In this document: positions 9,937-45,023 of the stretch, in pieces
Layout: every line of letters starts with the position of its first letter
How positions within the stretch are numbered: position 1 is the stretch's first letter
NCBI GenBank assembly: GCA_943736015.1
Contig: OX031065.1
Location: 47,594,992-47,658,991 of the forward strand
DNA from: Tridacna crocea
Lineage: Eukaryota; Mollusca; Bivalvia; Cardiida; Cardiidae
Length of the DNA: 64,000 nt
Direction of reading: 5' to 3'
Program-made: the position numbers and the translations under genes
The notes under the pieces: model-generated
Told to the model about the DNA's origin: nothing
The model's input: the letters and a program-made list of their open reading frames with translations, nothing else
Database searches by the model: none

Positions 9937-10007
9937 ATGGAAAAATTATTGAGAAATGTGTTGAATCTTTTGGTAAGATTGAAACCAATACGAACTACCG
10001 GTACTAA
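9888..10007 (+). promoter_or_regulatory. Overlapping uORF at the RNA ligase start
   Basis: ATG 9888 opens a 39-codon frame (M-L-K-D-M-L-V...) in another frame that runs over ATG 9937 and stops at TAA 10005, 34 nt before ATG 10042. If the mRNA begins upstream of 9888, this would penalise the 9937 start and favour reinitiation at 10042. The transcription start is unknown; TTTTCAG at 9870-9876 could also be a 5'-UTR splice acceptor. Confidence 0.4.
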
Positions 10008-10196: not shown

Positions 10197-13100
10197 GTAG
10201 GGATTATCTAAAATTGTCATTGGATTTCGCGACTGATGCCGTGATGGGCATTGCTTAACCCTTTACCCCATAAGACATTTCTATGGTATCTCTATTTGAC
10301 CCAAATAACAGCAAGGATGAAGCAGTTTTTTTATGTGTATATGGCACCTTTTGATAGCATAGAAAACATTTTGACAAAAGGTGAAATTGATCGTCACGAG
10401 CAATTTCACCTTTTGCCACAATGTTTTCCAAAGGCTCCTACAAGCAATGCTAGAAATGAGTATCTATGGAGTAAAGGGTTAACTCTATGAAACATTGCCG
10501 AATTATTTCTTAAAATTTGAAAACGATAGATCTAGTTAAATGAATTAATGCCTAAACACATTACGATCTACATAGTCGGTTATTCTTGCTGATATGCAGC
10601 AAGCAGGAAGTTTTAGAAGCATTAACCCTTTACCACACAATCCATACTTTTGACGACTCCGAGAAAAAAATCCTATAGAAAACATTGTGGGAAAAGGAGA
10701 AAATGCTAGTAACAAGCATTATCTCCTTTTCTCACAATTGTGTGAAAAAGAGAAAATGCTGGTGTCCAGCATTTTCTCCTTTTCTCGCTATATTTTCTAC
10801 CCATCACAAAAAAAAAAAATTTTCAGGCACTGCAAATGGTTTTCGATTTGGACAAGCCAAAAAAATTGTTGTTTGATAGTCTGATGAGTTAACTCATTAC
10901 CAGATGACAAAATTTTAGACTGGTCCAAATTGAAAGCATTTGCAGACGACAAAATAAACTTGACTCAAAAATTGAAATTTGATTTGGAAAGGGTAGAAAA
11001 CATTGTGGGAAAAGGAGAAAATGCTGCTTACCAGCATTTTCTCCTTTTCCCACAATGTTTTCTAAGGGCTTCTTTCTCAGGGTCGTTAAAAGTCGGGATT
11101 GTGTGGTAAAGAGTTAACTATTAAGTTTTTAACCAAACGACAAAATTTTAGACTGTTCCAAATTGAAAACATTTTCAGACAGCAAAATAAACATGGCTCA
11201 AAAATTGAAATTTGTTTTGAGAAGGGTAGAAAACATTGTGGGAAAAGGAGAAAATACTGGTTGGTTACCAGCATTTTCTCCCTTTCCCACAATGTTTTTA
11301 AAAGGCTTCTTTCCCCTCGTAATATAATCATAGGATGATTTCAGGTATAAAAATCATTTTAGGATGATTTTATGCATTAGACTAATTGGTTATTTAGATT
11401 TGTTTTGTAAATGGAACTCATGATCGAGTAAAATATTTGATCCATAATTTATGGTTTTCCAGGCTTGTTTTTAAATATAGAACTTGGAAGTCCAGCATCT
11501 TTTTCATTTTACCCTTCACTTATCTATGAAAAGATAAAACAGAAAACATTTAGTGGAAAGGAGAAAATGCTGGTTACCTGCATTCACCCCTTTCCTAACA
11601 ATGTTTTCACTTGCCTTTTCTCATGAATCGGGTTTTTAGCCATTACTAAACAATGCAAGGTTTGCACAACCCTGAGGAAAAAACCCTCTGAAAACATAGT
11701 TGGAAGAGGAGAAAATTTTTCAACGTTTTCTACCCATCTCAAAACAAAGTTTCATTTTTCAGTCGCATTTATTTTGTCATCTGCAAATTATTCTTTCAAT
11801 GTGGACCAGTCCAAAATTTTGTTGTTTGGTTAAGATTTAATTTAGTTCAAATGTTTTGCATTAAGACTTGGGTAAAAATTTGGAAATGTTTGAAACTATT
11901 GTTCTCTAAAATGTTTTGCATTAAGACTTGGATGAAAATTTGGAAATGTTCGAAACTATTGTTTTCTAGATGGCTGTCATGGGCAAAAAAGGAAAACTAC
12001 CTCAAAGTGGTGTCAACAGAGATTCCGCATGGGATTTTACCCGCAGAATACAAAGGAAATCTCAGTGATGTGAAAGTGTTTGTAAAGTATGGACCAGATG
12101 ATCCAGTATATGACAACAACAAGACCATCAGAGAGAGGGTAATTGTAGTCTATCCCATTACCACACAATCCCCATTATCTTCGTATGTCATATTCTTCAA
12201 AGATTCGACTGTCTTATATGACGCATCACTAGCCCGGAAAGTGGGCTGACTGTAATATTACGCTCTATACAGTGGCAATGTAGAAAATAGCTTTTATCAA
12301 TGTGTTTGAAGAGAAATGAGACCTGCTTTAGCTCCAGATTTCTCGAACTGCTGATCATAGCTGAGTGAATTGCACGAGGTAGAGTTTTATTGAGTAAACA
12401 TTTATTTTAGTTTTAAATTCAAAGTAACGGTTGTCGCGTAGGAAAGTGGTTCAGTGCTGTACCCAGGATGCCCATATTAGGTAGATGAGTATTCATAGAA
12501 TGCCATCTAGCGGGAGATAATGCACAATCCTTACTTTTGATGACCCTGGGAAAGAGGCCTTCAGAAAACATTGTGGGAAAAGGAGAAGATGCTAGTAACC
12601 AGCATAATCTCCTTTTCCCACAATGCTGTCTCCCCTTCACAAAACAAATTTCAAATTTTCAGTCACCTTTATTTTGTTGTCTGCAAATGCTTTCAATATG
12701 GACAAGCCTAAAATTTTGTCGTTTGGTAATGAGCTATATAGTAGATTTACTAGTATAGCATACTTTGGTATTCGGAAGGGAAAAAACAGGGGTGCAACTT
12801 TTTACAGAACTCCAGATAAAGGGAATGATTTTGATTTCAAAATTGAAATGTTAATAATTCTCCTTCAAACCCTTTGTTATGGGCACTCAGACAATTCTAA
12901 TGGGTACCCACAAAATAGGGTTAGGAAGAGAAATAATGGATCATGAATACCATCACTCTCTCATATCTCTTTCCTAAACGTGTCCGCAGTACAAGTGTTT
13001 AGAAAACACTGTGGGAAAAGGAGAAATTGCTTGTTACAAGCAATTTCTCCTTTTCCCACAGTGTTTTCTAGCCTATTCGAAAACTGTCTGCCATTCTCAT

Positions 13101-16100
13101 CAAATTCAAAATTGTAATCTTCAAACACTTTGAGTTTGGGACGGTCTAAAATTTGTCATCTGGGAAAGGGTTAACTGGAGCTCTGTTTTTGTATGACTTA
13201 AATACTTGTATAAAGGCACAAATGAACTTTATAACCTTTTGACAACACAATCTCCAGTTTTAAAAACTCTTGGTAATAAAGTCTTTTGAAAACATTGCTG
13301 GAAAAGGAGTAAATAGTAGTAATCGGCATCTTGTCCTTTTCCCATAATGTTTTCTATCCTTTCGAAGAAAATTCTGAATGTTTGAGTCACACTGAAATTT
13401 GTCGTCTGGACGTGCTCTCAAGTTGAACAAGTCAAAAATTGAATCCTCTGGTAAAGAGTGTAGAAAACATAGTACATAAAAAATAAAATGCTCTATTGTT
13501 CAATGTGTGGAGTAAGATGCTGCATACCCCATTACCATACAATCCCTACTTTTGATGACCCTGAGAAAGAAGCCTTTTGAAAACATTGTGGGAAAAGGAG
13601 AAAATGCTGGTAAACAGCATTTTCTCCTTTTCCCACAATGTTTTTTACCCTTCACAAAACAAATTTCAAATTTTCAGTCATTTTTATTTTGTCGTCTGCG
13701 AATGCTTTCGATTTGGACAAACCTAAAATTTTGTCGTTTGGTAATGAGATACATGATCTTTTTGAAATGTATCGTAGGTTGCTAGGGGCAACAGTTTTCT
13801 TGAAATCACAAACAAGGTACCACAAACAACCTGTGTTCTACAAGCTATGAAGAAGTTTACAGGCGGACTTGGTGATGATGATGACAAGGATGGGGGAGAT
13901 GACCTGATATGGAAACGATATTTTACAAAGGCAGGTAATTTTTACTCTGTTATCCTAAGTTGTTCACCTTAACTCTTTACAATACAATTCCAACTTTTAA
14001 CAACCCTTGGAAAAAAAAACAAACTTCTGAAAACATTGTGGGAAAAGGAGAAAATGCTGGTAAACAGCATTTTATCCTTTTCCCATAATGTTTCCTAGCC
14101 TTCCCAAAACAAATTTCAATTTTGGAGCCATATTTATTTTGTCGTCTGCAAATGCTTTCGATTTGGACCAGTCTACTTTTTTGTTGTTCGGTAAAGAGTT
14201 AAGGGACATAACACCTTTTGAAGGGGAAGTGTTCTGACTCTCTTCTGTCAACACACAGGGGCAAGTGAGTGTTTATATGGCCTGCAATATTAAGGTATGT
14301 ATGCAGTATTTAGGAACATCACACAAAGAAAGTTGTTGGAAACTTTATTGGAGAGAAGTGGTGTTGAAAACTAATAGTTTTTACTTTTCCCATAATGTTA
14401 TTAAACCTTTTTATCCTTTTGTCATTACGAGCATTTTCTCCATTTTGCCACTGTATTTTCTTCCCTAGCAGATAAAAATACCACCGTTTTGGGTACTGTT
14501 AATTTGCTATCTGCAAATTCTTTCAATTTCAGGAGATAGAGATAATCTCATCTAGTAAAGAGTTAGCTCTCTACCAAACGACAACATTTAACCCATTACC
14601 ACACACTCTCTGCTTTAGACGACCCTGAGAAAGAAGCCTCTAGAAACCATTGTGGGAAAAGGAGAAAATGCTGGTAACCAGCATTTTCTTCTTTTCCCAC
14701 AATGTTTTCTATCTTTCACAAAGGAAATTTCCAATTTTTAGTCACTTTTATTTTGTCATCTGCAAATGCTTTCAATTTGTACAAACCTAAAATTTTGTCG
14801 TTTGGTAATGAGTTAAGACTGAGTTAAGCATTTGCAGACGACAAGATTAATGTGGCTCAAAAAATTAATTTCACTTTTGAGAGAAGGGAAAAAACACTGT
14901 GGGAAAAGGAGAAAATGCTGGTTACCAGCTTTTTCTCCTTTTCCCACAGTGTTTTAAGAGGGCTTCTTCTTCAGGGACGTGAAAACCAGAGATTGTTTGA
15001 TAAAGGGTTAAGAAAAATTAAATAGTTTGTTGTCTACAAATGTGTTGAATTCTGAAAGATCTGAGGTTTTATTGCTTAAGTTTTTACAACCAATGAAAAA
15101 AAGACTTTAAAAACATTGTGGGTAAAAATTTCTCCTTTTCGCACATTGTTTTCTATCCTTTTGAAGGACAACTTCCATTATTTCATCCTTGTTGAATTTG
15201 TAATCAGCAAAAATACTTTGGAATTGGACTAAACAAAAATATTTTTGCCTGGTAAGGGAAAGAACAAAGAGAAAAAATATTTTTAATACACAGCCTCTTG
15301 AAGAGACAGACTTTATAATCAGCACTTCAAAAGCAAATGGAGAAGCTGCCCACCTGAGCTGTGTAGAGATTGCCGGAGAGTTTGTGATGTGTGGGGGATC
15401 AAAGAATGTTCACATGATGTTCAAAACTAAAGGTTTGTGTATTTGGATTAATTTGTGAACCCTTTTTCCAAATCACTAAGTTTTGGATTTGTTTTTGTAA
15501 TGTACTTTGATACTGTCCCTACATATTTTCACTGGATGAAAGTATGCAACATTTTTCCGTATTGCATACTTTGATCATATTATTTAGTTTAGAGTTTTTT
15601 TCACATTTGTTGCCAAGTCCGGAACTATTTTAAAAGCCACCATTTCTCTAAAAATCGAAATGTAAAGGGCCACCACAATTATAAAAAATTTCAGTGTTAG
15701 ACATCATGTTTTACGGTTGCTAGAGAACTCGTACCCTGGAGAACTCGTACTCTGGAGAACTCGTACCCCAATCTGAAGGGTACGAGTTCTCTGGAGAACT
15801 CGTATCCCTGGGTACGAATTCTCCAGAACTCGTACCCTACAGATATTTTGGGGAATAAATTTGTATCTCTATATATCATTCAGACTTTGGTGAATTAATT
15901 ATTTTCATTTTATCTTTTAAGAAATGATTGCGTAAGTTATACAATAATCAAGCATTGGTAATGAGTACTTCTAGCAAATATCAGTTTTGTAACCGGATCT
16001 TTCATGGATTAAAATGATAAGGAAGTAAGGTAAATGGTTAGGTAAATTCAAGAAAGATGAAATTATCAGTAAGCTCTACATAATCTGGATTCATCTAATG

Positions 16101-37100: not shown

Positions 37101-40100
37101 CATAATGTCTCCTTCGGACGCTATGTTTGTGTATTCCTGTAAGTAAATGAGCGAATTGATCATCTAAAAATAGAATGTGTATCCCGTTGGTGTCTACCTG
37201 GGCAGTCGTAAATCTCAAATTTTTCGTGTTGTCGGACGGATTTCGACTACTGGGGTTTTATGAATGAAAGTTAAAAGGCTTTGGGAGTATAAGGATGATT
37301 TTTTTGCACTTTTGTAAAATTTTCTTCCCAAAATCTGAAGGACCACCTTTAAATGTCAGTATTGATTTGCTAACCCTTTACCAAATGATGAAATTTTGGA
37401 CTAGTCTGAATTGAAAGCATTTGCAGACGACAAAATAAATGTAACTCAAAAATTGAAATTTGATTTATGGAGGGAAGAAAACATTGTGCAAAAAGGAGAA
37501 AATGCTGGTTACTCTTTTCTTGGGGTTGTTAAAAGTTGGGATTGTGTGGTAAAGAGTTAAAGGGTTAAGGAATGTTTTTATATTTTAGGTATGTTATGTG
37601 TCGAGCTGTCCGAGAGAAAGCCAAGACAGCATGCTCTAGGTCAGCGAAAGATTCATATATGTTTTCTAAACAGAAGTCCATTGATCAGGTTTGTATTTGT
37701 AATATGAAGTAGTTTTGATAGTAAGAGGGCTAAGCCCCAAAGTCTGTGGAATTTTTAATATGATGTCCAACTGTGTTGAGATTTCCACTTGTGGAATCAC
37801 AGTCCCAGAGCTCCAGATAAGAGGGAGTGACGATATACTAAATCCATTATTTCTCTTCCAAACCCAATGTCGTGGGTACTCATTAGAATCGTCTCAATGA
37901 GGTGATTCTAATGAGTACTCAGAATGTAGGGTTTAGTTGAGAACAATTAATATTTTCAATTTTGAAATCAAAATTACTCTTTCTATCTGGAGGTCTGACA
38001 GTCGGATATCAATTTCCATGTTGGGAAAAAAAATACCAATCTGATTTTATGTTGTAGGTTTTTTCTCGCAAAAGGATGCAAGGTTTGCTCTGCTGCAGCA
38101 TGTCATAAAGTCACCAATGTCATGCTTCATAAAATCAATATTTATACCCTCTCTGAATGTTTGTGTGTGTGTGTGTCTGTCCTTCTGTCTGCCAGTATAG
38201 GAAATACTAGTCATTGTCTGTTTTCTGTCAAAGTGCTGGCATGGGTATTAACTCTTTACCAAACGACAAAAGTTTAGGCTTGTGCAAATTTAAAGCATTT
38301 GCAGACGAGAAAACAAAAGTGATTGAAAATTTGAAGTTTGTATTGGGAAGGGTAGAAAACAGTGTGGGAAAAAGACCTGAATTGAAAGCATTTGCAAATG
38401 AGTTTTAGTGTGGCCCATATGAAATGATTTTTCTTTAATAGGATAGAAAGCATTGTGGGAAAAGGAGAAAATGCTGCTTACAAGCATTTTCTTATTTTCC
38501 CACAATGTTTTATAAAGGCTTTTTTCTCAGGGTTGTCAAAGGTAGGGTTGTGTGGTGGGTCAATTGAAGGCATTTGCTGATGTTAGATTTAGAGTGCACG
38601 AAACAATTGCTTGTTGAAATTAAGAGAACGTTGGAGGAAAAGGAGAAAATGCTGGTAGCTAACATTTTTAGCTCACCTGAGCACAACGTGCTCAAGGGGA
38701 GCTTTTATGATCACTGGGTGTCCGTCGTGCATCGTCCATTGTGCGTCGTCAACAATTCTTTAAACATCAACTCCTCCTAAACCGCTGAGCCAATTTAGAC
38801 CAAACTTGGCTGGAATGTTCCTTGGGAGGTCCTCTTTAAAAAATGTTCACAGAATTTGATTACGTCAAAAACTCTGGTTGCCATGGAAACCAAATGGAAT
38901 TTTCTAGGAAATTCTTTAAAAATCTTCTCCTCTGAAACCGCTGGTCAGATTTTAAAATAATTTCACAGAGATGTTCCTTGGGTGACCCTTTTCAAAATTT
39001 ATTTGCGAAATTTTGATCCATCAAGAATCATTGCTCTGATGAATGGGAGCTACTTGCACTATACAGAAATGAAGAAATTCTTAAAAATTCTTCTTCTCTG
39101 AAACTGCTGGTCAGAATTTGAATAATTTCACAGAGATTTTCCTTGGATGACCCTTTTCAAAAACTGTTCACAAAATTTTGATTCATCAAGAACCATGGCT
39201 CTTGTGAATGGGGGCTACTTGCACTATACTGGGAAAATGAAGAAATTCTTAAGAACTCTTCTACTCTGAAACCGCTGGTCAGATTTTGAAATAATTTCAC
39301 AGACATGTTCCTTGGGTGACCCTTTTCAAAAGGTGTTCATAAAGGTTTGATTCATCAATAAACATGGCTCTGGTGAATGGGGGCTACTTGCACTATATAG
39401 CCATGAAGGAATTTTTTAAAATTCTTCTCTGAAACGGCTGATCAGATTCTGAAATAATTTCACAGAAATATTTCCTTAGTTGACCCTTTTCAAAAATTGC
39501 TCGAAATATTTTCATCCATCAAGAAACATGGCTCTGATGGCTGTGGGCTATTTACACTATACAGACATGAAGAAATTCTTAAAAATTCTTCTTCTCTGAA
39601 ATGGCTGTTTAGATTTTGAAAAAAATGGCTATGGTCCTCTCAGAAATTCAGGTGAGCGAACCAAGGCCATCTTGGCCCTCTTGTTTACTTTTCCCACAAT
39701 AATTTTTTTTTTAGGTCAGTGTTTTGGTAAATAGTGGACTGTGATAATATCCACTTAACATTAACCCTTTCCCAATCGACAAACTTTTGGACTAGACCAA
39801 ATTGAAAGCATTTGCAGACGACAATTCAACTCTTGCTGAAAAGATGATTTCTGTCTATGATAGGGTAGAAAACACTGTGGGAAAAGGAGAAAATGCTGGT
39901 TACCAGCATTTTCTCCTTTTCCCACAATGTTTTCAAAGGTTACTATTTCAGACGCGTAAAAACCAGGAATTATTTGGGAATAGGTTAAAATTCTTCCTGA
40001 GTTTTTACAACTGCTATTGACCTATCTCTGTGCTTCTATTGAAATGGTGTAATTATAGTAGAGTAACAAACACTAGTTACAAGCATTTTCTCCTTTTCAC

Positions 40101-43100
40101 ACATCTCTTTCTTACCCATACAAGACAAATCTCATTATTTAACTCTTTACCAAATGACAAAATTTAAACTGTGCCAAAATCAAAGCATTTGCAGATGACA
40201 AAATGAATGCTACTGCAAAATTAAAAGGTGGGTATTTAGAATTTTTACATCTCACCAATTTAAAAAATATATGTATCACTGAAATTCATATGAAAAAATA
40301 ATACAAATCATTAAAAATTAAGATTCATAAAATTACAAAAAAAAATTTTTTTTGATGGTGTTCCCTTAAAAGGCTACGTAGCCTCTTAAGATATTTTTAG
40401 ATTTCGCGCCAAAAATCAATAAAGCATTATGGGAATGTCAAGTGACTAGCATGTGACTCATAACGCTTAAATTCCATTACATAACAAACATGTAATAATT
40501 ATTTTGCATAATGTCTTCTTCGGATGCTATGTTTGAAACTTTGTCTGTGTATTCCTGTATGTAAATGAACGAATTGATCGTCTAAAATTAGAACATGTCT
40601 CCCATTGATGTCAACCTGGGCCGTAGTAAATCTCTATTTTCTCGTGTTGTCGGATGGTTTTCGACTACTGGGGTTTTATGAATGAAAATTAAAAGGCTTT
40701 GGGAGTGTAAGAATGATCTTTTTGCATTTTTGTAAAATTTTCGTCCCAAGATCTGAAGGGCCACCTTTAAATTTGTTTTGGGAAAGGTAGAAAACATTGT
40801 GGGAAAATGGTCACCAGCATTTTCTCCTTTTCCCTCAATGTTTTCAAAGGCTTTTCTGTCGGAGTCGTTAAAAGTCGGGATTGTGTGGTGAAGAGTTAGG
40901 CAATGTTAAATTTATTATCTGGTAATGTGTTCAATTTGGACCGAGCTGAAATTTCATTGCACTATAAAGAGTTTGCAACTAGTTACCTCTGTGATATTTA
41001 GTGTGCTCTTTACAGAGATGTGAATATTCATTGCAGCTTGAAAAGAGAGTTAGAGAAATACAGAGATGGTTGAAGATAGATGATAAAACAACACAACAAT
41101 GGAAAGTAAGGAAAAGTTTTCCATGCACATATGTACAGTTTTATGTAGACTTTTTTGTGTGACTTTATCTCTCTCACACATGAGAAAAAAAATAGACTTG
41201 TCAGAATTGAAGGTACCGTAAAACGGGGTTTTTTATACGTGCTGCCAATTTGTACTAATTTTTACGCATCAAAAAGATATGTAAAAATTTGACGTGTAAA
41301 TAATTACAGCATAAAACCGTTGTATTGTATCAATATGAAATAAAGGGTTATCAGTATGTAATACCTGTGCACTAAATACATGCAATATAAGAATTTTTTC
41401 ACTTGTGTTCTGATTACATGTGATATGACTTCTCTCAATCAGTCATCTCTATTTGGATATTTTAAGCCACGGGTTCCGTGCCCAAATAGAAAACTAACAG
41501 AGAATTCCAGTCCATACTAGATCTATACATGAATTGAATATTCAGGTTAAAAATGCTTTGACACCATGTAAACGAGGCACCTTCATGATACTCAACACGT
41601 TGATTATGGCGGTGATGAGAATTTGACTTGGCATTGGGCTGCTTCAAAAATGTCACGAATGGGTCTTGTGAAAACGTGGCTGTACAACTGCAAAACCAGA
41701 GTTTTTAAAATTTTGATGAACTAAAGGAGGGCTTTCTAAACAGAGTGAAAAAAGTAATGACAGATGACAGTGTGCCTCCACAGATAGTTATCAATTATGA
41801 CCATACAAGTATCTGTTAAAACAGTTATTTGCACGTCAAAACAATTACCACTATTTGCACGCCAAACAAAGAGTGACATTTTTCTTTCAACCGGTATTTA
41901 AAACAAACAATACACTTATAATCTTAAATGAAAGAGCGGACAATGCACTGATAGTTTTAATGCTGTAATTTTTTACGCATGTTTAGAATTAGTAAAAAAT
42001 AAAATCGTAAAAATTTAAATCACATGTTTTTAGCTCAAATTCGTAACTTTTTACAGCAGTAAAAAAAACCTGTTATATGGTATTTGCAGACAGCAATACA
42101 AATATGACACTAAAATCTTGTCTGTACAAGGATGGAAAACATTGTGGGAAAAGGAGAAAATGCTGGTTACCAGCATTTTCTCCATTTGCCACAATATTTT
42201 CATATGGCTTCTTCCACATGGTTGTTAAAGGTCAGGATTGTGTGGTAAAGTTTTACATTATGTATTATGTTTGTATCTGAAAATTAATATGAACTGTGCT
42301 GGGGGAAACCCTTGATGCATTAATATAGCAAGTCATCACAATAAGTATTAACCCATTACCACACAATCCCTACTTTTGACGCCCCTGAGAAAGAAGCCTT
42401 TAGAAAACATTGTGGGAAAAGGAGAAAATGCTGGTAACCAGCATTTTCTCCTTTTCCCACAATGTTTTCTACCCTTCACGAAACAAAATTTCAAATTTGC
42501 AGTCACTTTTGTCATCTGCAAATGCTTTCAATTTGGACAAATCTAAAATATTGTCGTTCGGTAATGAGTTAATCCATAAAATCCATATTTGTCTAACAAA
42601 CTGGTAGCTCGGTAAGTAGCTTTCAGGACATGAGAAAAGGTGTCGTGGGTTGGATCCCTGGCTCGACCAATTGCTTTCTGAGGATTGAAGATAGTCACTG
42701 CAACAAGATTCATTCTGCTCTCACAGCTGACCATTGCCAGGAGGATGGTTATTGTGGGAAAGCAGCCAGTGGCTTGGAATTGAAATTGTGTGGAGTACTC
42801 ACTGATGGGAGAAACTCCAGGAAAACATGGATAGGTGTACTGATGGTTAGTGCAGGAGGTTAAATGTACATAAATTACCAATATGTATGGGGTAGTGGGG
42901 CACAGGGGAACTGTCCTCATTGTCTTTGATGGAGTAGAAAACATTACCAGCTGGTAACAAGCATTTTCTCCATTTACCAGTGTTTTAAAAGGCTTTTCCT
43001 ACAGGGTCGTTAAAACTTGTGATTGTTTGGTAAAAAGTTAACACTGGAAATGAAAATAGGATTGCTTTGAAGGCCTCCAAAACACGAAATGCACTTTCTA

Positions 43101-45023
43101 TCCTTCGTAACCTGTGCAGTCTTGCCGCCATCAGGAGCAACATTTGGCATGAAGAGACAAGATTGATTATAGTTTCATAAAATAAGGATGAAATGGTTTA
43201 AAACCTGGTTGAAAACTGCCTGATAAGAAAGAGAGATGTATTCCACCCACGACTTTTAGCGACCCTGAGGAAGAAGCCTTTTGAAAACATTGAGGGAAAA
43301 GGAGAAAATGCTGGTAACCAGCATTTTCTCCTTCTCCCACGAAGTTTTCTACCCTATCAAAGAAAAATTATGTCATTTGAGCCACTATAAAATTGTTGTC
43401 TGCAAATGCTTTCAATTTGGATAGGTTTTAAATTTTGCCATGTGGTAAAGGGTGAAACTGTCTTGATTTGGTTGACTCTGCTAATGGACGGATCTTCCAA
43501 CTTGAGTTCAATTTTTTTTGTGTGACACATATCATTAACATTAATAGACTTAACCCTTTCCCAAACGACAAATTTTGGACTCTTCCAAACTGAAAGAGTT
43601 TGCAGATGACAATTTTAAATTTTGAGAAAATGGCAGAAAGTTCACAAAAAGGGTAGAAAACACTGTGAGAAAAGGAGAAATTGCTCGTAACGAGCAATTT
43701 CTCCTTTTCCCACAGTGTTTTCAAAAGACTTTTACTGCAGACACGTAAAAACCAGGGCTTGTTTGGGAAAGGGTTAAGTAACATTTTCAAAGACTCTAGG
43801 TGCCTAATGTCAAGGTCACAGCAGAAGTGGGAGAGGGAAGGTCATACTTCACTTACCACATGCCCTTAACCCTGTCCCAAACGGCAAATTTTGAACCAGA
43901 CCAAATTCAAAGTATTTTGCAGATGACAAGTTAACAGTTACTAAAAAGATGATTTTCTATATGGTAGGGTAGAAAACATTGTGGGAAAAGGAGAAAATGC
44001 TGGTTACCAGCATTTTCTCCTTTTCCCACAATGTTTTCAAAAGGCTTCTATTCCAGGCCCGTAAAAACCAGGGATTGTTTGGGAAAGGGTTAAATCTGTA
44101 TCTCTTGGACCACTTGTCTGATTCTGAAAGTATGTCACACATTTATGAACCTATGTAAGATGATGTGCAGGTCAGATGCCTGGTTCCAAGGTCAAGGTCA
44201 CAGCCTGGAGTCAGTGACATGCTTGTGACAGATTCTTTTGGACGTACGATGTTCTGCTTGACAGAGAGTATTTTTTAAGAACTGAAAGTCAGACTGTTTT
44301 ACATGTGTTATATTTTGCAGGAACTAGGAGTTGGGTTTCTGAAGTGGGTGCTCAGTGAACTGGAAGAGAATCATATCTCTCAGGATGAAGTTCGGGATTT
44401 GTTTCCTGTATGTTGGTAAGAGCATTTTGTACTTCGAAACCAGAGCTTGCATTTTAATCCTTATGTACTGTAGTTTTAGAAAAAAGTTGCAGTTTCTTTT
44501 TAACACATCAATGATCTGCCGATATATTTTATAAGTCTTTACCAAACAAGGCTTGGTATTTTACAACCATTGGGAGAAAAGCTTTTGAAAACCTTGTGGA
44601 GAAAATTTTCCCTCTGTATTTTAGAAAAGCCTTCTCCTCCAGGGTCGTTTAACCCTTTACCAAACAATCCCTGGTTTTTACAACTGAGACAGAAGCCTTT
44701 TGAAAACATTGTGGGAAAAGGAGAAAATGCTGGTAACCAGCATTTTCTCCGTTTCCCACAGTGTTTTCTACCCAGATGGAAACAAGTTTCAACTTTTGAG
44801 TTACATGTATTTTATTGTCTGCAAGTGCTTTCAATTTGGACCGGTCTACATTTTTGTCATTTGGTGAAGGGTTCAAGGTAGTATTGTTTAGTAAACGATT
44901 CAACATGTCTTTTTCAGGGACAAGTATCTTGCACAGAAGAAAGTTACAGACAAAATAGACGTTACATTTGACAACAAAGAGACTGTAATGGATAAACAGC
45001 AAAGTGGAGCATGTGGGAGTTGA
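9937..45023 (+). CDS. T4 Rnl1-like RNA ligase, complete 13-exon gene
   Basis: Splicing 13 exons (phases all agree) gives 531 residues. Ligase-type nucleotidyltransferase motifs appear in order: V-A-R-G at 144-147 (the Arg upstream of motif I typical of Rnl1-type ligases), motif I K-A-N-G-E at 205-209 (K205 the predicted AMP-accepting lysine), motif III F-E-I-L at 297-300, motif IV E-G-E-V-L-Y at 379-384, and motif V L-L-K-K-K at 395-399 followed by S-V-W-Y. The C-terminal ~130 residues are helical and basic, without a recognised domain. Family knowledge: such enzymes seal 5'-phosphate/3'-OH RNA ends; a T4 Rnl1-like RNL is known from amphioxus (from memory, not aligned here). No kinase or phosphodiesterase domain is visible, so end healing would need partner enzymes. 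Residues 1-35 resemble a mitochondrial presequence. The final TGA follows Gly-Ser. Family is confident; substrate is unknown. Confidence 0.88.
10255..10482. mobile_element. TH-B MITE in ligase intron 1
   Basis: TTAA-bounded; CCCTTTACCCCATAAGACAT to GGAGTAAAGGGTTAA; loop TTGATCGTCACGAGCAA. Confidence 0.92.
10622..10892. mobile_element. TH-A MITE with two hairpins in tandem
   Basis: Two adjacent palindromes (10685-10739 and 10740-10795) inside one pair of TTAA ends. The right TTAA is shared with the next copy. Confidence 0.85.
10889..11117. mobile_element. TH-A MITE, full length
   Basis: TTAACTCATTACCAGATGAC to GTGTGGTAAAGAGTTAA; hairpin with GCTGCTTACCAGC loop. Confidence 0.92.
11129..11318. 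mobile_element. TH-A MITE, right end truncated
   Basis: TTAACCAAACGACAAAATTT, hairpin with TGGTTGGTTACCA loop, stops after AAAGGCTTCTTTCCC. Confidence 0.85.
11515..11840. mobile_element. Two decayed TH-A MITEs
   Basis: 11515-11630 keeps GGAGAAAATGCTGGTTACC. 11636-11840 keeps the CATTACTAAACAATGC end and GTTGTTTGGTTAAG. Confidence 0.65.
11851..11969 (+). repeat. 60-bp tandem duplication containing the exon 2 acceptor
   Basis: Two 60-bp units (11851-11910, 11911-11970) start ATGTTTTGCATTAAGACTTG. The second ends TTTTCTAG, the exon 2 acceptor. The first ends TTCTCTAA, so its acceptor AG is lost. Confidence 0.9.
11970..12138 (+). CDS. RNA ligase exon 2
   Basis: Acceptor TTTTCTAG|A and donor GAGAGG|GTAATT. 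Phase 2 in, phase 0 out. Encodes residues 87-143, including WLSWAKKENY and VFVKYGPDDPVYDNN. The acceptor lies in the second unit of a 60-bp tandem duplication. Confidence 0.9.
12139..12511. other. Intron 2, start
   Basis: A 'cccattaccacacaatcccc' TH-A tip at ~12155-12180; otherwise nothing recognised. Confidence 0.4.
12512..12735. mobile_element. TH-A MITE
   Basis: TGCACAATCCTTACTTTTGA to GTCGTTTGGTAATGAGC; hairpin with CTAGTAACCAGCAT. Confidence 0.85.
12805..12969. mobile_element. GAGCTCCAGATA-TIR MITE, partial, inverted
   Basis: CAGAACTCCAGATAAAGGGA ... CACTCTCTCATATCTC, with 'gatttcaaaattgaaat' and 'aggaagagaaataatgga' shared with the other copies. Confidence 0.75.
12976..13174. mobile_element. 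TH-C MITE
   Basis: Hairpin AACACTGTGGGAAAAGGAGA / TCTCCTTTTCCCACAGTGTT with loop TTGCTTGTTACAAGCAA; right end GGGAAAGGGTTAA. The arm substitution is matched on both sides. Confidence 0.85.
13231..13459. mobile_element. Decayed TH-A MITE
   Basis: ACCTTTTGACAACACAATCT ... CTCTGGTAAAGAG; hairpin arms heavily mutated. Confidence 0.7.
13526..13749. mobile_element. TH-A MITE just before ligase exon 3
   Basis: CCCATTACCATACAATCCCT to GTCGTTTGGTAATGAG; perfect hairpin apart from GCTGGTAAACAGC. Ends ~28 bp before the exon 3 acceptor. Confidence 0.9.
13778..13934 (+). CDS. RNA ligase exon 3 (V-A-R-G element)
   Basis: Acceptor ATCGTAG|GTT, donor GCAG|GTAATT; phase 0 in, 1 out. Encodes residues 144-195, starting V-A-R-G-N-S-F, with an acidic D-D-D-D-K-D-G-G-D-D stretch and IWKRYFTKA. 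The acceptor has a weak pyrimidine tract; the next AG (13785) would give an early stop. Confidence 0.87.
13969..14202. mobile_element. TH-A MITE just after ligase exon 3
   Basis: TTAACTCTTTACAATACAAT to GTTCGGTAAAGAGTTAA; 35 bp after the exon 3 donor. Confidence 0.9.
14300..14566. mobile_element. Decayed TH-A MITE
   Basis: TTGGAAACTTTATTGGAGAG, ATCTGCAAATTCTTTCAATT and CTAGTAAAGAGTTA survive. Confidence 0.65.
14588..14816. mobile_element. TH-A MITE, full length
   Basis: TTAACCCATTACCACACACT to GGTAATGAGTTAA; perfect hairpin apart from one arm mismatch. Confidence 0.92.
14824..15011. mobile_element. TH-A MITE, left end lost
   Basis: TTAAGCATTTGCAGACGAC; hairpin AACACTGTGGG / CCCACAGTGTT (matched arms); ends GATAAAGGGTTAA. 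Confidence 0.88.
15078..15260. mobile_element. Decayed TH-A MITE before ligase exon 4
   Basis: Half of the hairpin deleted (ACATTGTGGGTAAAAATTTC). Extends to within ~45 bp of exon 4. Confidence 0.65.
15304..15432 (+). CDS. RNA ligase exon 4 (motif I)
   Basis: Encodes E-T-D-F-I-I-S-T-S then K-A-N-G-E-A-A-H, the KxNG(E) nucleotidyltransferase motif with K205. Donor AAAG|GTTTGT. Phase 1 to 1. The acceptor is uncertain: CTTGAAG|AG is chosen; the AG after AGAC (15309) also keeps frame and would drop two residues, whereas the stronger-looking ACACAG at 15293 is out of frame. Confidence 0.85.
15715..17815. mobile_element. 2,101-bp long-TIR element with ACTCGTACCC subrepeats
   Basis: ~115-bp inverted ends made of repeated GAGAACTCGTACCCTGG units (15715-15840 and 17695-17815). 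Flanked by the 8-bp duplication TGTTTTAC (15707-15714, 17816-17823). The interior carries decayed TH remnants (~16290-16370, 16440-16560, 16745-16980) and no transposase frame. Confidence 0.85.
17824..18159. other. Intron 4 stretch without features
   Basis: AT-rich; nothing recognised. Confidence 0.4.
18160..18394. mobile_element. TH-A MITE just before ligase exon 5
   Basis: TTAACTCATTACCAAACGAC to GTGTGGTAATAGGTTAA; hairpin left arm interrupted by an insertion (AAAGTACCGGTAG). Confidence 0.9.
18475..18607 (+). CDS. RNA ligase exon 5
   Basis: Acceptor CTACTTCTTTTTGAG|AA has a strong pyrimidine tract; donor CACAG|GTTCGA. Phase 1 to 2. Encodes residues 239-282, EEKPTILATSADVGRY and the helical REVCEAVVDGIDRMDSD, linking motifs I and III. 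Confidence 0.88.
18628..18856. mobile_element. TH-B MITE just after ligase exon 5
   Basis: TTAACCCTTTTCTCCACAGA to TGGGGTAAAGGGTTAA; loop TTGCTCTTGATGAGCAA; starts 20 bp after the exon. Confidence 0.92.
18911..19138. mobile_element. TH-B MITE
   Basis: TTAACCCTTTACTCCATAGA to TGGGGTAAAGGGTTAA; loop TTGCTTGTGATGAGCAA. Right TTAA shared with the next element. Confidence 0.92.
19135..19355. mobile_element. TH-A MITE
   Basis: TTAACTCTTTGCCAAACGAC to TTTGTGGTAAATAGTTA; intact hairpin 19247-19305. Confidence 0.9.
19356..19693. other. Intron 5 stretch without features
   Basis: AT-rich, nothing recognised. Confidence 0.4.
19694..19804. mobile_element. TH-A MITE, one end
   Basis: TTCAATCGCTTTTATTTTG to GTCGTTTGGTAATGAGTTAA; TTAA shared with the next copy. 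Confidence 0.8.
19801..20027. mobile_element. TH-A MITE abutting ligase exon 6
   Basis: TTAACCCTTTACCAAACAAC to ACTGTGTGGTAATGG; hairpin 19913-19972. Ends 24 bp before exon 6. Confidence 0.9.
20052..20147 (+). CDS. RNA ligase exon 6 (motif III)
   Basis: Acceptor TGTATTGCAG|G, donor AAAAA|GTAAGT; phase 2 to 2. Encodes FLSFLVASRYTAVFEILVP and then HQHVVNLSYL; F-E-I-L is motif III. Hairpin MITEs end 24 bp before it and begin about 20 bp after it. Confidence 0.93.
20168..20350. mobile_element. TH-A MITE directly after ligase exon 6
   Basis: Starts ~20 bp past the exon. Loop expanded to GCTGGTTACCATGGTTACCA. Right TTAA shared with the next copy. Confidence 0.88.
20347..20575. mobile_element. TH-A MITE with matched arm variant
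   Basis: TTAACTCACTTACCAGACAA ... ATGTGGTTAAAGGATAAA. Arms GTGAGAAAAGG / CCTTTTCTCA carry the same change on both sides. Confidence 0.88.
20635..20785 (-). mobile_element. SINE-3 fragment
   Basis: 'gtgcacctatctacattttc', 'taccagtactctacataata' and 'ttcccacat' match 23990-24275. Confidence 0.65.
20800..21028. mobile_element. TH-A MITE with matched arm variant
   Basis: Arms GTGGGAAGAGGAGAAAATGC / GCATTTTCTCCTCTTCCCAC: the A to G change in the arm is mirrored exactly. Ends GTGTGGTAAAGGGTTAA. Confidence 0.9.
21029..21683. other. Intron 6 stretch without features
   Basis: About 650 bp with no recognised repeat or coding signal before exon 7. Confidence 0.45.
21684..21774 (+). CDS. RNA ligase exon 7
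   Basis: Acceptor GCCTTGCAG|A, donor ATAGAA|GTGAGT; phase 2 to 0. Encodes PELKFIAWTKTDLQAKGDMQ then NVIPPHIGIE, a spacer between motifs III and IV. Earlier GT sites (AAAG|GTGACA, ATAG|GTATAG) do not give the phase exon 8 needs. Confidence 0.87.
22051..22280. mobile_element. TH-A/C MITE
   Basis: TTAACCCTTTCCCAAACAAT to GTTTGGAAAAGGGTTAA; intact hairpin. Near-identical to 39761-39988 in the opposite orientation. Confidence 0.92.
22440..22535 (-). mobile_element. tRNA-like SINE scrap
   Basis: Reverse strand reads GAGTGTTGGCCTCGTAACCG then GAGGTCCTCAGTTTGATAAC, resembling a tRNA-derived head. Too decayed to be a tRNA gene. Confidence 0.4.
22690..22890. mobile_element. Decayed TH-A MITE before ligase exon 8
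   Basis: GCATTTTCTCCTTTTCTGAC, TTGTTTGATAAAG; left arm mostly lost. Confidence 0.6.
22944..23021 (+). CDS. RNA ligase exon 8
   Basis: Acceptor TTGATTTCAG|ATA, donor GTTCAA|GTAAGT; 26 whole codons (IARCLGLDTVGYDVVQMEQL and DEKIVQ). A stop in this frame just upstream excludes the earlier TTTTTTTCAG acceptor at 22911. Confidence 0.9.
23101..23271 (+). repeat. 57-bp minisatellite, 3 units
   Basis: Units at 23101, 23158 and 23215 start TGTGATGTGCCCTCTATTAG. Units 1 and 2 are identical and unit 3 differs at a few sites. The period is divisible by three, so frames stay open on both strands, but the sequence is intronic. Confidence 0.92.
23272..23685. other. Intron 8 stretch without features
   Basis: Nothing recognised. 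Confidence 0.4.
23686..23912. mobile_element. TH-A MITE
   Basis: TTAACTCTTTACCGCACAAT to GTCATCTGGTAAAGAGTT; hairpin with one arm change (TTGCAGAAAAAGG). Scrap of another copy at 23925-23985. Confidence 0.9.
23990..24275 (-). mobile_element. tRNA-derived SINE-3
   Basis: Reverse strand: head with GGGGTCATAAGTTCGATCCC (B box-like), GATTCATTCATCTCTCATTG, and tail GTTGAAGACAGCGTTAAACA. Copies: 42605-42862 (+), 63395-63690 (+), 20635-20785 (-). Confidence 0.8.
24284..24505. mobile_element. TH-A MITE
   Basis: TTAACCCATTACCAAACAAC to GTGTGGTAATGGGTTAA; hairpin 24387-24446. Confidence 0.92.
24532..24776. mobile_element. Decayed TH-A MITE
   Basis: TTAACTCAATACCAAATGAC to TTTTGTGGTAAAGGTTAA; arms diverged. 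Confidence 0.8.
24835..25062. mobile_element. TH-A MITE
   Basis: TTAACCTGTTACCACCCAGC to TTGTGTGGTAAAGGGTTAA; shortened hairpin GGAAAAAATGCTGGCTACC. Confidence 0.85.
25063..25382. other. Intron 8 stretch without features
   Basis: Nothing recognised. Confidence 0.4.
25383..25588. mobile_element. TH-A MITE lacking one hairpin arm
   Basis: TTAACTCTTTACCACACAAG ... GTGTGGTAAAGGGTTAA. Left arm complete, right arm deleted after TTACCAG. Confidence 0.88.
25742..25912. repeat. Imperfect palindrome
   Basis: ATAAACCACATCGTGAGTTA pairs with ATTCACAACTGTGGTTTAT, and GGGCACAATAAGTAAACCAC with GTGGATTATTTATTGTGCC, around a CTCGGGCCATCGC centre. A small foldback MITE 50 bp before exon 9. Confidence 0.75.
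25962..26053 (+). CDS. RNA ligase exon 9 (motifs IV and V)
   Basis: Acceptor TCTCATTATAG|ATT, donor GTCTG|GTAAGT; phase 0 to 2. Encodes IRQGYNMEGEVLYFIDKTG and CVMGLLKKKSV. EGEVLY is motif IV; LLKKK is motif V, whose lysines contact the nucleotide phosphates in this superfamily. Followed by an 11.5-kb intron holding many transposons and the putative nested gene. Confidence 0.95.
26162..26393. mobile_element. TH-A MITE after ligase exon 9
   Basis: AACCCATTACCAAACGACAA to GTGTGGTAATGGGG; hairpin with GCTGATTACCAGC. Confidence 0.9.
26580..27180. mobile_element. Decayed TH MITEs
   Basis: 26807-26975 keeps TTAATCCTTTCCCAAACAAT and GTAAAGAATTAA. Pieces on both sides keep 'gaaagaatttgtaaac' and 'gaagaaaatgctggtt'. 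Confidence 0.65.
27268..28824 (+). repeat. 156-bp tandem array element, ~9 units
   Basis: CAAGTATGAAAAACGACAAA recurs at 27346, 27502, 27658, 27814, 27971, 28127, 28282, 28439 and 28595. Left edge contains GATACGCCCGTC (~27292), right edge GACGGGCGTAT (~28809), opposite orientations of the same word, so the array probably sits inside one mobile element. No coding signal. Confidence 0.9.
28905..29175. mobile_element. GCCTGCGCAGGC palindromic MITE, copy 1
   Basis: Ends CACATATGGCCTGCAATACG / CGTGTTACAAGCCATATATG; internal GGATCAGCCTGCGCAGGCTG self-complement. Typical bivalve element. Confidence 0.85.
29218..29411. mobile_element. TH-A MITE, damaged
   Basis: TTAACTCTTTACCAAACGAC ... GGATTGTGTGGTAAAGA; one arm deleted. 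Confidence 0.8.
29425..29724. mobile_element. TH MITE remnants beside the nested terminal exon
   Basis: Fragment 29425-29480, then 29515-29724 with a diverged hairpin (GTGGGAAAAGGAGAAAATCC) ending GGGAAAGGGTTAA. Confidence 0.7.
29745..29931 (-). CDS. Putative nested gene terminal exon
   Basis: Acceptor CTTTCTTCATCCCTCAACAG|G, a strong pyrimidine tract. 62 codons open to TGA (29745-29747). The region is non-repetitive. Confidence 0.48.
29745..35573 (-). CDS. Putative nested gene, ~158 residues, unknown function
   Basis: Four candidate exons on the - strand inside RNA ligase intron 9 join in frame (phases 1, 2, 2), giving a stop-free 158-residue protein. It has an acidic start (MADHLQPTQV, then SETDSDNESYE), a hydrophobic/helical segment (YLLGLSNTLWSQMLDYEKVV), short middle exons, and a helical C-terminal part (QWDKIEETVQKIDTYSRQTR and WSSLLWLLADRELSRAS). 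None of the exons lies in a recognised repeat. I do not recognise the family. The middle exons are short and could be chance. Confidence 0.42.
29985..30355. mobile_element. Strongly decayed TH MITEs
   Basis: 'gcagaaaattatcgaacggg', 'agaaaacactgtaag' and 'gacttatactgcagatacg' recall TH-C. Confidence 0.5.
30428..30712. mobile_element. GCCTGCGCAGGC palindromic MITE, copy 2
   Basis: Ends CACATGGCTCGCAACACGCG / CGTGTTGCAGGCCATTTTCA; two internal palindromes of the same class as copy 1. Confidence 0.87.
30722..30870. repeat. Palindrome around TTCTGATTGGCTAAACC
   Basis: TTCTGATTGGCTAAACCA / TGGTTTAGCCAATCAGAA is a perfect hairpin with flanking arms AAGAACATT / AATGTTCTT. A sister hairpin lies at 32519-32567. 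Confidence 0.8.
31053..31420. other. Intron 9 stretch with poly(A) and MITE scrap
   Basis: A run of A's near 31296-31309 and a TH scrap 'ctggctaccagcag' near 31345. Confidence 0.4.
31421..31583. mobile_element. TH-C MITE with hairpin deleted
   Basis: TTAACCCTTTCCCAAACAAG ... GTTGTTTGGGAAAGGGTT; only the outer parts remain. Confidence 0.8.
31664..31893. mobile_element. TH-A MITE
   Basis: TTAACTCTTTACCACACAAT to GTTTGGTAAAGAGTTAA; hairpin with loop GCTGGTCACCAGC. Right TTAA shared. Stub of another end at 31638-31655. Confidence 0.9.
31890..32117. mobile_element. TH-C MITE
   Basis: TTAACCCTTTCCCAAACAGG to TGGCGTTTGGGAAAGGGTT; arms AACACTGTGGG / CCCACAGTGTT; loop TTGCTCGTAACGAGGAA. Confidence 0.9.
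32118..32402. other. Intron 9 stretch with a decayed TH scrap
   Basis: Weak TH echo 'acaaccccgaggaagagggc' near 32295; nothing else. Confidence 0.4.
32403..32465 (-). CDS. Putative nested gene exon 3
   Basis: Acceptor ATTCTCAAG|A, donor ACCAG|GTGATA; 63 nt, phase 2 to 2. Encodes MTGGYVPCMLPGNTQRPGHT. Because it is phase-neutral it could be skipped or spurious. Confidence 0.33.
32500..32590. repeat. TTCTGATTGGCTAAACC hairpin, copy 2
   Basis: CTTCTGATTGGCTAAACCAT / TGGTTTAGCCAATCAGA, flanked by gttaaagtaac / gttactttcac. Confidence 0.8.
32847..32910 (-). CDS. Putative nested gene exon 2
   Basis: Acceptor TTACTGACAG|TC, donor TATAG|GTAAGT; phase 1 to 2. Encodes PGHNFRLSVCEGVKGMYEVY. The strong donor and fitting phases are the main support. 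Confidence 0.4.
33110..33516. mobile_element. TH-A MITEs, one decayed, one complete
   Basis: 33110-33300 is decayed. 33298-33516 runs CTCTTTACCAAACGAC to GTGTGGTAATTGGTTAA with a shortened hairpin (GGAGAAAAAGCATTTTCTCC). Confidence 0.82.
33513..33740. mobile_element. TH-A MITE
   Basis: TTAACTCTTAACCAAATGCC to TATGTGGTAAAGAGTTAA; left TTAA shared. Confidence 0.88.
33741..34136. other. Intron 9 stretch with poly(G)
   Basis: G-run near 33917-33927; otherwise T-rich, nothing recognised. Confidence 0.4.
34137..34355. mobile_element. TH-A MITE with four matched arm substitutions
   Basis: Arms AAACTTTATTGGAAAAGGGG and CCCCTTTTCCAATAAAGTTT are exact complements, though both differ from the family arm AAACATTGTGGGAAAAGGAG at four sites. 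Confidence 0.88.
34432..34653. mobile_element. TH-A MITE
   Basis: CTACCAAAAGACAATATTTT to GTGTGGTAATGGGTTAA; hairpin 34536-34595. Right TTAA shared. Confidence 0.88.
34650..34822. mobile_element. TH-A MITE, sister of 34137-34355
   Basis: Same left end (ATCCTAACCTACAGTGACCC), but its arms AAACTTTGTTAGAAAAGGAG and CCCCTTTTCCAACAATGTTT do not match each other. Confidence 0.85.
34823..35051. mobile_element. TH-B/C hybrid MITE
   Basis: Left CCCTTTACCTGATATGCC, hairpin GTGGGAAAAG-type with TTGTTACGAGCAA, right TGAGTATCTATGGAGTAAAG typical of TH-B. Confidence 0.8.
35052..35410. other. Intron 9 stretch without features
   Basis: AT-rich, nothing recognised; lies between MITE and putative nested exon 1. 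Confidence 0.4.
35411..35573 (-). CDS. Putative nested gene exon 1
   Basis: ATG 35573 in a good context (ataATGg). 54 codons, then donor CTAG|GTAAGA, phase 1. Composition and the donor look genuine. Confidence 0.5.
35771..36001. mobile_element. TH-A MITE
   Basis: TTAACCCTTTACCACACAAG to GTGTGGTAATGGGTTAA. Confidence 0.92.
36002..36312. other. Intron 9 stretch without features
   Basis: AT-rich; nothing recognised. Confidence 0.4.
36313..36500. mobile_element. Decayed TH MITE
   Basis: CCCTTTACCTTATAACACAA; short perfect hairpin GGAGAAAATGCATTTTCTCC. Confidence 0.7.
36526..36741. mobile_element. Chimeric TH-A/TH-B MITE
   Basis: TH-A left end (CCAAATAATCCCTGATGAAA, ACATTGTAATATGG) joined to a TH-B interior (ATTGACCCTAAATAACATGG) and TH-B right end (GGAGTAAAGGGTTAA). 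Confidence 0.82.
36742..36819. mobile_element. TH MITE scrap hosting AGGTGG copy 2
   Basis: 'gaaagccttctttttatggt' and then the TTAA used by the insertion. Confidence 0.6.
36820..37348. mobile_element. AGGTGG element, copy 2 (529 bp)
   Basis: TTAA at 36816-36819 and 37349-37352; ends AGGTGGGTATTTAGAATTTT / GAAGGACCACCT. Confidence 0.9.
37371..37559. mobile_element. TH-A MITE lacking an arm, 29 bp before ligase exon 10
   Basis: ACCCTTTACCAAATGATGAA ... ATTGTGTGGTAAAGAGTTAA; right hairpin arm deleted. Confidence 0.85.
37589..37688 (+). CDS. RNA ligase exon 10
   Basis: Acceptor TTTATATTTTAG|G, donor GATCAG|GTTTGT; phase 2 to 0. Completes the Trp codon and continues YVMCRAVREKAKTACSRSA, a basic helix directly after motif V. 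Confidence 0.92.
37806..37998. mobile_element. GAGCTCCAGATA-TIR MITE, copy 2
   Basis: CAGAGCTCCAGATAAGAGGG / TTTCTATCTGGAGGTCTG. Confidence 0.85.
38162..38178 (+). repeat. (TG)n microsatellite
   Basis: TGTGTGTGTGTGTG followed by a ctgtcc/tctgtc-rich tail. Confidence 0.85.
38248..38563. mobile_element. Fused TH-A MITEs
   Basis: TTAACTCTTTACCAAACGAC start, left arm broken at GTGGGAAAAAGACC, then a second copy's GAATTGAAAGCATTTGCAAA, a full hairpin (38454-38510) and right end. Confidence 0.75.
38564..39740. mobile_element. TH-A MITE split in its hairpin by a bivalve repeat
   Basis: Left half ends GGAGAAAATGCTGGTAGC (38658); right half resumes ACTTTTCCCACAATAA (39687). Confidence 0.75.
38668..39685 (+). 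mobile_element. ~1-kb 'gctcacctgagc' element
   Basis: Starts TTAGCTCACCTGAGCACAAC and ends CAGGTGAGCGAACC ... GGCCATCTTGGCCCTCTTGT. Interior is 4-5 diverged ~170-bp repeats ('ctctgaaaccgctggtcaga', 'gttccttgggtgaccctttt'). Common in bivalve genomes; non-coding. Confidence 0.85.
39761..39988. mobile_element. TH-A/C MITE
   Basis: TTAACCCTTTCCCAATCGAC to TATTTGGGAATAGGTTAA. Left arm has AACACTG while right keeps CAATGTT (unmatched). Confidence 0.9.
40139..40897. mobile_element. TH-A MITE split by AGGTGG copy 3
   Basis: TTAACTCTTTACCAAATGAC (40139) ... insert ... ATTTGTTTTGGGAAAGGTAG and GTGTGGTGAAGAGTTA. Confidence 0.87.
40225..40766. mobile_element. AGGTGG element, copy 3 (542 bp)
   Basis: TTAA at 40221-40224 and 40767-40770; AAGGTGGGTATTTAG ... 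GAAGGGCCACCT. Confidence 0.9.
41016..41105 (+). CDS. RNA ligase exon 11
   Basis: Acceptor GCTCTTTACAG|AGA, donor TGGAAA|GTAAGG; 30 whole codons, RCEYSLQLEKRVREIQRWLK then IDDKTTQQWK. Predicted long helix. Confidence 0.9.
41190..42255. mobile_element. TH-A MITE split by a mariner-like element
   Basis: GACTTGTCAGAATTGAAGG (to 41213) resumes as TTTGCAGACAGCAATACAAA (42083), hairpin 42139-42195, ending ATTGTGTGGTAAAG. Confidence 0.82.
41216..42080. mobile_element. 865-bp TA-flanked, mariner/Tc1-like non-autonomous element
   Basis: TA at 41214-41215 and 42081-42082. Inverted ends CCGTAAAACGGGGTTTTTTA and (reverse) CCATATAACAGGTTTTTTTT. No transposase. Confidence 0.65.
42348..42572. mobile_element. 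TH-A MITE
   Basis: TTAACCCATTACCACACAAT to GTTCGGTAATGAGTTAA; perfect hairpin. Confidence 0.93.
42605..42862 (+). mobile_element. tRNA-derived SINE-3
   Basis: GTAGCTCGGTAAGTAGC head, GTCGTGGGTTGGATCCCTGG B box-like, TGTGGGAAAGCAGCCAGTGG body; lacks the 3' tail. Confidence 0.78.
42895..43041. mobile_element. Decayed TH-A MITE
   Basis: AACATTACCAGCTGGTAAC and TTGTTTGGTAAAAAGTTAA. Confidence 0.65.
43235..43455. mobile_element. TH-A MITE
   Basis: CACGACTTTTAGCGACCCTG to CATGTGGTAAAGGGTG; near-perfect hairpin. Confidence 0.85.
43550..43777. mobile_element. TH-C MITE, type copy
   Basis: TTAACCCTTTCCCAAACGAC to TTGTTTGGGAAAGGGTTAA; loop TTGCTCGTAACGAGCAA. Confidence 0.93.
43866..44093. mobile_element. 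TH-A/C MITE
   Basis: TTAACCCTGTCCCAAACGGC to TTGTTTGGGAAAGGGTTAA; perfect 30-bp-arm hairpin (43976-44035). Confidence 0.93.
44094..44320. other. Intron 11 end with 'aaggtcaaggtcaca'
   Basis: A GGTCAAGGTCACAGCC motif (~44192), echoed at ~43812, a frequent bivalve repeat word. Confidence 0.45.
44321..44415 (+). CDS. RNA ligase exon 12
   Basis: Acceptor ATATTTTGCAG|GAA, donor TGTTG|GTAAGA; phase 0 to 2. Encodes ELGVGFLKWVLSELEENHI and SQDEVRDLFPVC. Helical, acidic. Confidence 0.9.
44530..44876. mobile_element. TH-A MITEs before ligase exon 13
   Basis: Decayed copy 44530-44648, then full copy 44649-44876 (TTAACCCTTTACCAAACAAT ... TTGGTGAAGGGTT) with hairpin 44709-44766. Confidence 0.85.
44918..45023 (+). 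CDS. RNA ligase exon 13, stop codon
   Basis: Acceptor TGTCTTTTTCAG|G completes Trp, then DKYLAQKKVTDKIDVTFDN up to GACGS and TGA at 45021-45023. A TH-A MITE ends about 41 bp upstream of the exon. Confidence 0.9.

Follow-up and report, generated by a model that had tools for sequence, protein, structure and literature searches.

A 13-exon gene of the bivalve Tridacna crocea encodes a DUF7920 protein proposed to be a stand-alone 5'-3' RNA ligase

We analysed a window of 64,000 nucleotides of Tridacna crocea DNA (contig OX031065.1, positions 47,594,992 to 47,658,991 of the forward strand), and positions below are counted from its first letter. The window contains a gene of 13 exons on the + strand, spanning 9937–45023, which we rebuilt by linking open frames through GT-AG sites in agreeing phase. 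The exons join into a coding chain of 1566 nt encoding 521 amino acids, with a stop codon only at the end. All 12 introns carry GT-AG boundaries and all phases agree, matching the 13-exon gene with perfect phase agreement that a first-pass annotation had described. The exons are as follows.

Exon 1: 9937..10196, + strand; residues 1–87, starting at Met1 (9937) or Met36 (codon 10042–10044)
Exon 2: 11970..12138, + strand; residues 87–143 (HGILPAEYKG...), the DUF7920 match beginning at residue 128
Exon 3: 13778..13934, + strand; residues 144–196, with VARG (R146) and MKKF
Exon 4: 15304..15432, + strand; residues 196–239, with motif I KANGE and the candidate adenylylated lysine K205
Exon 5: 18505..18607, + strand; residues 239–273
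Exon 6: 20052..20147, + strand; residues 273–305, with motif IIIa FEILVPGHQHVV (E288)
Exon 7: 21684..21774, + strand; residues 305–335 (PELKFIAWTKTDL...)
Exon 8: 22944..23021, + strand; residues 336–361
Exon 9: 25962..26053, + strand; residues 362–392, with motif IV MEGEVLY (E369) and motif V LLKKK (K387, K389)
Exon 10: 37589..37688, + strand; residues 392–425, where the C-terminal region begins (YVMCRAVREKAKTA...)
Exon 11: 41016..41105, + strand; residues 426–455
Exon 12: 44321..44415, + strand; residues 456–487
Exon 13: 44918..45023, + strand; residues 487–521 and the stop codon

The weakest point of the gene model is the junction between exons 3 and 4. By the rough home-made score with which splice sites were graded, the exon 4 acceptor at 15304 reaches 1.4, that at 15310 reaches 2.6, and those at 15294 and 15208 reach 3.1. 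The motif I lysine is K205 with the acceptor at 15304, the number already given in the first-pass annotation, K203 with that at 15310 and K207 with that at 15294, which requires a GC donor at 13930; the Pfam score is identical for these three. The acceptor at 15208 is doubtful: it lies inside a dispersed repeat and breaks the Pfam match into two. The doubt arose from a weak extra place in the genome, on contig C5 (E 1.29), which is a dispersed repeat. For exon 6, the DUF7920 score is 10.4 bits higher with the acceptor at 20052 than with that at 20076, while the latter is slightly better as a splice site. The start codon is uncertain, because an upstream ATG at 9888 lies in a different frame and Met36 offers an alternative. 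Residues 1–35 are basic, with eight Lys or Arg and a single acidic residue (Glu), and the helical moment of the first 18 residues is 0.57, which is high compared with the protein mean of 0.23 and not unique, the maximum being 0.69 at residue 249. The basic N-terminus of the Met1 form is thus a possible mitochondrial presequence. Downstream of exon 13, the closest AATAAA or ATTAAA lies at 45309. A further frame at 41709–41816 on the + strand (FDELKEGFLNRVKKVMTDD...VPPQIVINYDHTS) sits within intron 11 and may resemble a transposase; it was tried as an exon and rejected, with no passing acceptor ahead of it and no Pfam match.

Repeats make up 54% of the bases at 9900–45100, and none of the 13 exons overlaps one, although exons 3, 6 and 13 have abundant repeats no more than 60 bases away. 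None of 20,000 random placements was free of repeats, a control that is not fully independent because the exons had been picked by eye and recognisable repeat frames skipped. In a search of the clam's own genome (1.05 Gb), which scores its best candidates only, all 13 exons were found once each, every one of them in this window; the two extra weak places were the one on C5 noted above and one on C11 (E 9.99). Profile searches of the same genome with PF09511 and PF25536 returned nothing and missed the window's gene as well, and they say little because this gene is divided into short exons. The gene is apparently single-copy and intact.

A decayed gene without a working product, or a chain misjoined outside the DUF7920 core, would be a different account of the same exons. 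Exons 1 and 10–13 and most of exon 2 fall outside the DUF7920 match, an intron of 11,535 bases precedes exon 10, splice sites were scored roughly and the acceptor of exon 4 is a poor one, all of which leave some room for it. We nevertheless judge it improbable, since 1566 nt run without a stop or frame break, none of the 13 exons touches a repeat even though repeats fill 54% of the locus, and each exon was found once in the genome.

The strongest evidence on the identity of the protein comes from Pfam. In a scan of the preferred model to E 10, DUF7920 (PF25536) was the sole family reported, with an E-value of 1.6e-13 and 50.8 bits against a curated cut-off of 27. The match forms one stretch, in which residues 128–399 align with profile positions 46–314 of 315, reaching from the R-G element to motif V. 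A trimmed protein scored 51.7 bits, and removing exons 3 to 9 from it one at a time left 43.6, 43.3, 43.7, 34.4, 31.2, 35.3 and 33.6 bits, respectively; each of these exons contributes score, and every version lacking one of them still exceeds the cut-off. No kinase or phosphodiesterase domain was found on the polypeptide (Pfam, E up to 10), in agreement with the earlier statement that neither is fused to it. DUF7920 is a Pfam family of unknown function that carries no functional name, and the word DUF7920 was absent from the literature searched. In prokaryote genomes it matched 0 of 18, 0 of 395 and 0 of 392 (two counted twice), counts that do not imply absence, the control having matched nowhere.

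The match spans an ordered set of ligase motifs. A six-frame reading places KANGE at 15330, FEIL at 20092, EGEV at 25983 and LLKKK at 26031, all on the + strand. In the protein, the order is ARG at residues 145–147, KANGE at 205–209 (lysine codon 15330–15332), FEIL with E288, MEGEVLY with E369, and LLKKK at 385–389, so that every motif listed in the first-pass annotation (R-G, KxNG(E), FEIL, EGEVLY and LLKKK) was located in the order stated there. Motifs I, IIIa, IV and V in sequence, with a lysine and two glutamates, mark the covalent nucleotidyltransferase superfamily, and they are present here as K205, E288, E369 and K387/K389; the collinear alignment spans IIIa to V only, motif I was assigned by pattern, and motif III was left unplaced. 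R146 is proposed as the counterpart of R54-G55 in T4 RNA ligase 1 (T4 Rnl1).

The protein had been called 'T4 Rnl1-type', a label that the profile searches do not support as it stands. PF09511, T4_Rnl1_C (PF20819), PF17720 and PF01139 gave no reported match to the protein in the Pfam scan with E up to 10, in which HMMER filters discard most matches above E ~0.1, whereas T4 Rnl1 itself scores 89 on PF09511 (cut-off 28.3) and 135.3 on T4_Rnl1_C. Additionally, motif I reads KxNG in the clam protein and KxDG in all 14 phage Rnl1 proteins that we aligned; these derive from 15 ligase regions, from which an unannotated one and one with a split gene were excluded. T4 Rnl1 shares with the clam protein the order R-G, KxxG, FE, EG and KxK and is alignable from motif IIIa to motif V, but the R-G element comes 92 residues later in the clam protein (counted from Met1), and the spacing from the motif I lysine to the motif IIIa glutamate is 83 residues rather than 60.

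A more distant tie to T4 Rnl1 is suggested by several comparisons. In PHROGs, phrog_562, the T4 Rnl1 family, matches residues 271–442 with an E-value of 8.6e-5 and is the sole match below E 0.1. Aligned by hhalign with the 14 phage proteins, the clam protein gives an E-value of 0.003 at a probability of 9.7%, pairing FEILVPGHQHVV with FEFVAPTNRIVL, EGEV with EGYV, and KKKSVWYV with KIKSDWYV. Scored against the Rnl1 profile, it comes out top in a set of 100 made up of the protein, its reverse and 98 shuffles; it reaches 12.4 bits, and the highest-scoring shuffle 9.8. We also ranked 5,636 ORFs of at least 80 amino acids from 166 viral contig stretches chosen for Rnl1 or KANGEAA. Rnl1 ORFs (n = 80) took 7 of the top 20 places, and the AUC among ORFs of at least 200 amino acids (80 Rnl1 versus 1,165 others) was 0.836. 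With the query reversed, and with five shuffled versions of it, Rnl1 ORFs took 0–2 of the top 20 places and the AUC was 0.456–0.610. Residues 128–460 alone gave an AUC of 0.773 and 7 of the top 20, and residues 1–127, which lack the ligase motifs, gave 0.731 and 1 of the top 20. The ranking is only partly specific, because this N-terminal part reaches 0.731 and the Rnl1 ORFs are related to each other. The tie is weak by any one test, and several such tests together support it. The protein is therefore best filed, on sequence grounds, as a DUF7920 member and a putative distant relative of Rnl1/Trl1, outside the T4 Rnl1 family. The broader assignment in the first-pass annotation, to a covalent nucleotidyltransferase of RNA-ligase type, agrees with the ordered motifs, the DUF7920 match and this distant tie.

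Against the PDB, no solved ligase was found by sequence, and the 20 weak matches were unrelated, mostly DARPins. Single-sequence searches revealed no relative in viral contigs, in phages or in genome contigs, the phages giving five records at E 5–9. The KANGEAA pattern occurred in 86 viral contig stretches, none of them related by tblastn or phmmer. These scans bear on the idea that the gene is a captured viral ligase that gained introns later, comparable to the RNA_lig_T4_1 gene of abalone herpesvirus. An RNA_lig_T4_1 RNA ligase is listed for both abalone herpesvirus genomes, with partial copies in the bivalve ones, and the part of that paper available to us reports no similarity to mollusc genes and no counterpart in mollusc genomes (PMC5552708). 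We regard such a capture as very improbable, given that no PF09511 match is reported for the clam protein, that the gene carries 12 introns, and that no relative turned up in viral contigs, whether they were searched with peptides of the clam protein or through the 86 stretches with KANGEAA.

We favour, with a probability of about 0.8, the reading that the gene product is an ATP-dependent 5'-3' RNA ligase that belongs to the covalent nucleotidyltransferase superfamily, stands alone and would serve for sealing only. In enzymes of this superfamily a lysine is adenylylated, AMP is then transferred to the 5'-phosphate of an RNA, and a 3'-OH attacks. The link between DUF7920 and RNA ligation is a proposal made here, as Pfam assigns the family no function. 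We infer activity, substrate, partners and location as follows. The lysine of KANGE (K205, or K203 or K207 by splice site) would receive AMP from ATP and hand it on to the RNA 5'-phosphate, after which attack by the 3'-OH end would create the phosphodiester bond. Nucleotide and metal would be bound by E288, E369 and K387/K389, and the tail beyond residue 400, helical by eye, may bind RNA. Ends made by a ribonuclease would be healed beforehand by separate proteins, leaving the DUF7920 enzyme to do the sealing in a pathway divided as it is in amphioxus, and one form, bearing the basic N-terminus, may enter mitochondria.

The same superfamily also includes nucleotidyltransferases with other jobs, and the clam protein might join DNA or other ends, cap RNA or transfer AMP to protein. 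The KxNG/KxDG core is common to these other members, and a family without a functional name is compatible with any such role. We consider this unlikely, as PHROGs gives T4 Rnl1 and nothing else below E 0.1, and no DNA ligase or capping family appears in the Pfam scans to E 10.

If RNA ligation is indeed the function, the DUF7920 enzyme is a third ligase type rather than the sole one, because the same genome also has RtcB and RLIG1. RtcB (PF01139) lies on contig C7, and an RLIG1 (PF17720) orthologue lies at C12:14406321-14415698 in seven matched pieces, with EKLDG and EGIVW. The genome also has candidate healing genes. A CNPase-type exon on contig C18 carries two H-x-T/S motifs, HCTS and HVTI; on its strand, 8 kb further upstream, lies a P-loop frame with GLPGSGKST, which has weak generic Pfam hits only. 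The two (loci C18:604398 and 612239-612757), which are not necessarily one gene, form a candidate separate healing enzyme. CLP1_P matches were found on C14 and C7. The Tpt1/KptA 2'-phosphotransferase family gave 77 matches on 18 of 31 contigs (four copies compared in detail and 73 further places). Some of these matches, at the least, belong to repeated elements, and no resident Tpt1 gene stood out among them. The four copies compared share stretches of 0.9–2.4 kb at 95–98% identity, flanks included, so a mobile element seems to have spread the frame. Taken together, three different types of RNA ligase and candidate healing genes appear to coexist in this genome. A search for the haemocyanin domain PF14830 gave no match; the control for it matched nowhere either, and many bivalves have no haemocyanin.

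Among known systems, the proposed arrangement, with candidate healing genes apart from the ligase, resembles that of amphioxus, where the ligase and the kinase/phosphodiesterase are separate proteins according to the parts of PMC3400036 and PMC4090602 available to us. BfRNL, known here by description only, is a stand-alone animal sealing protein, as the clam protein would be, with weak similarity to known ligases, its healing activities residing on other polypeptides. The 2012 review presents BfRNL, in the available part of its text, as the sole animal exception, with no 5'-3' ligase homologues otherwise known (PMC3400036), and the first-pass annotation had likewise named amphioxus RNL as the only animal case studied. 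That view is out of date, as is surprise at finding any such ligase in an animal, because RLIG1 homologues have since been reported across many metazoans, as the part of PMC11494293 available to us states, and one is present in this genome. RLIG1 (C12orf29) is an animal stand-alone 5'-3' RNA ligase, as is proposed for the DUF7920 protein; it differs in that the DUF7920 protein has no PF17720 match and the RLIG1 gene is separate in the genome. Fungal tRNA ligase chains share the KxNG form of motif I, reading KANG in 9qw7_A and KENG in 6n0v_A, a likeness by motif only, and unlike fungal and plant Trl1 the DUF7920 protein has no fused kinase or cyclic phosphodiesterase. A literature search returned no paper on a mollusc Rnl1 RNA ligase or a Crassostrea tRNA-splicing RNA ligase, and a diplonemid ligase followed as a lead turned out, from the available part of PMC12699882, to be RtcB.

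A wider interpretation is more tentative, and we would give it somewhat less than even odds. Animal 5'-3' RNA ligases may include a class that has been overlooked, namely DUF7920, which would be separate from both RLIG1 and RtcB and to which amphioxus RNL possibly belongs. The clam would then have three ligase types and yeast-like parts (CNPase-type, CLP1-type and Tpt1-like), and the DUF7920 enzyme, perhaps mitochondrial, would serve either tRNA repair or 5'-phosphate splicing, a pathway that most animals are believed to lack. According to a review from 2026 on tRNA ligation in metazoans, evidence that a full yeast-like pathway operates in their cells is so far lacking; its text mentions neither amphioxus nor Branchiostoma (PMC13247085). 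The favoured reading of the gene as a ligase already gives a family of unknown function a testable one. It also suggests a split, amphioxus-like healing-and-sealing arrangement beyond cephalochordates, for which this clam, where a probable third ligase occurs together with RtcB, RLIG1 and possible healing enzymes, is a natural test case.

Several further features of the window were observed. No Rfam match was found within it. Half of the whole window consists of repeats, a single base being covered by as many as 167 matches, and tandem arrays lie at 27329–28747 (156-base unit, 9.1 copies), 7233–8229 (324) and 38908–39620 (169). At 50036–50722 on the - strand, a frame of 229 amino acids contains a MitMem_reg domain (PF13012, E 1.3e-32); it represents a neighbouring gene, downstream of the ligase gene and on the opposite strand.
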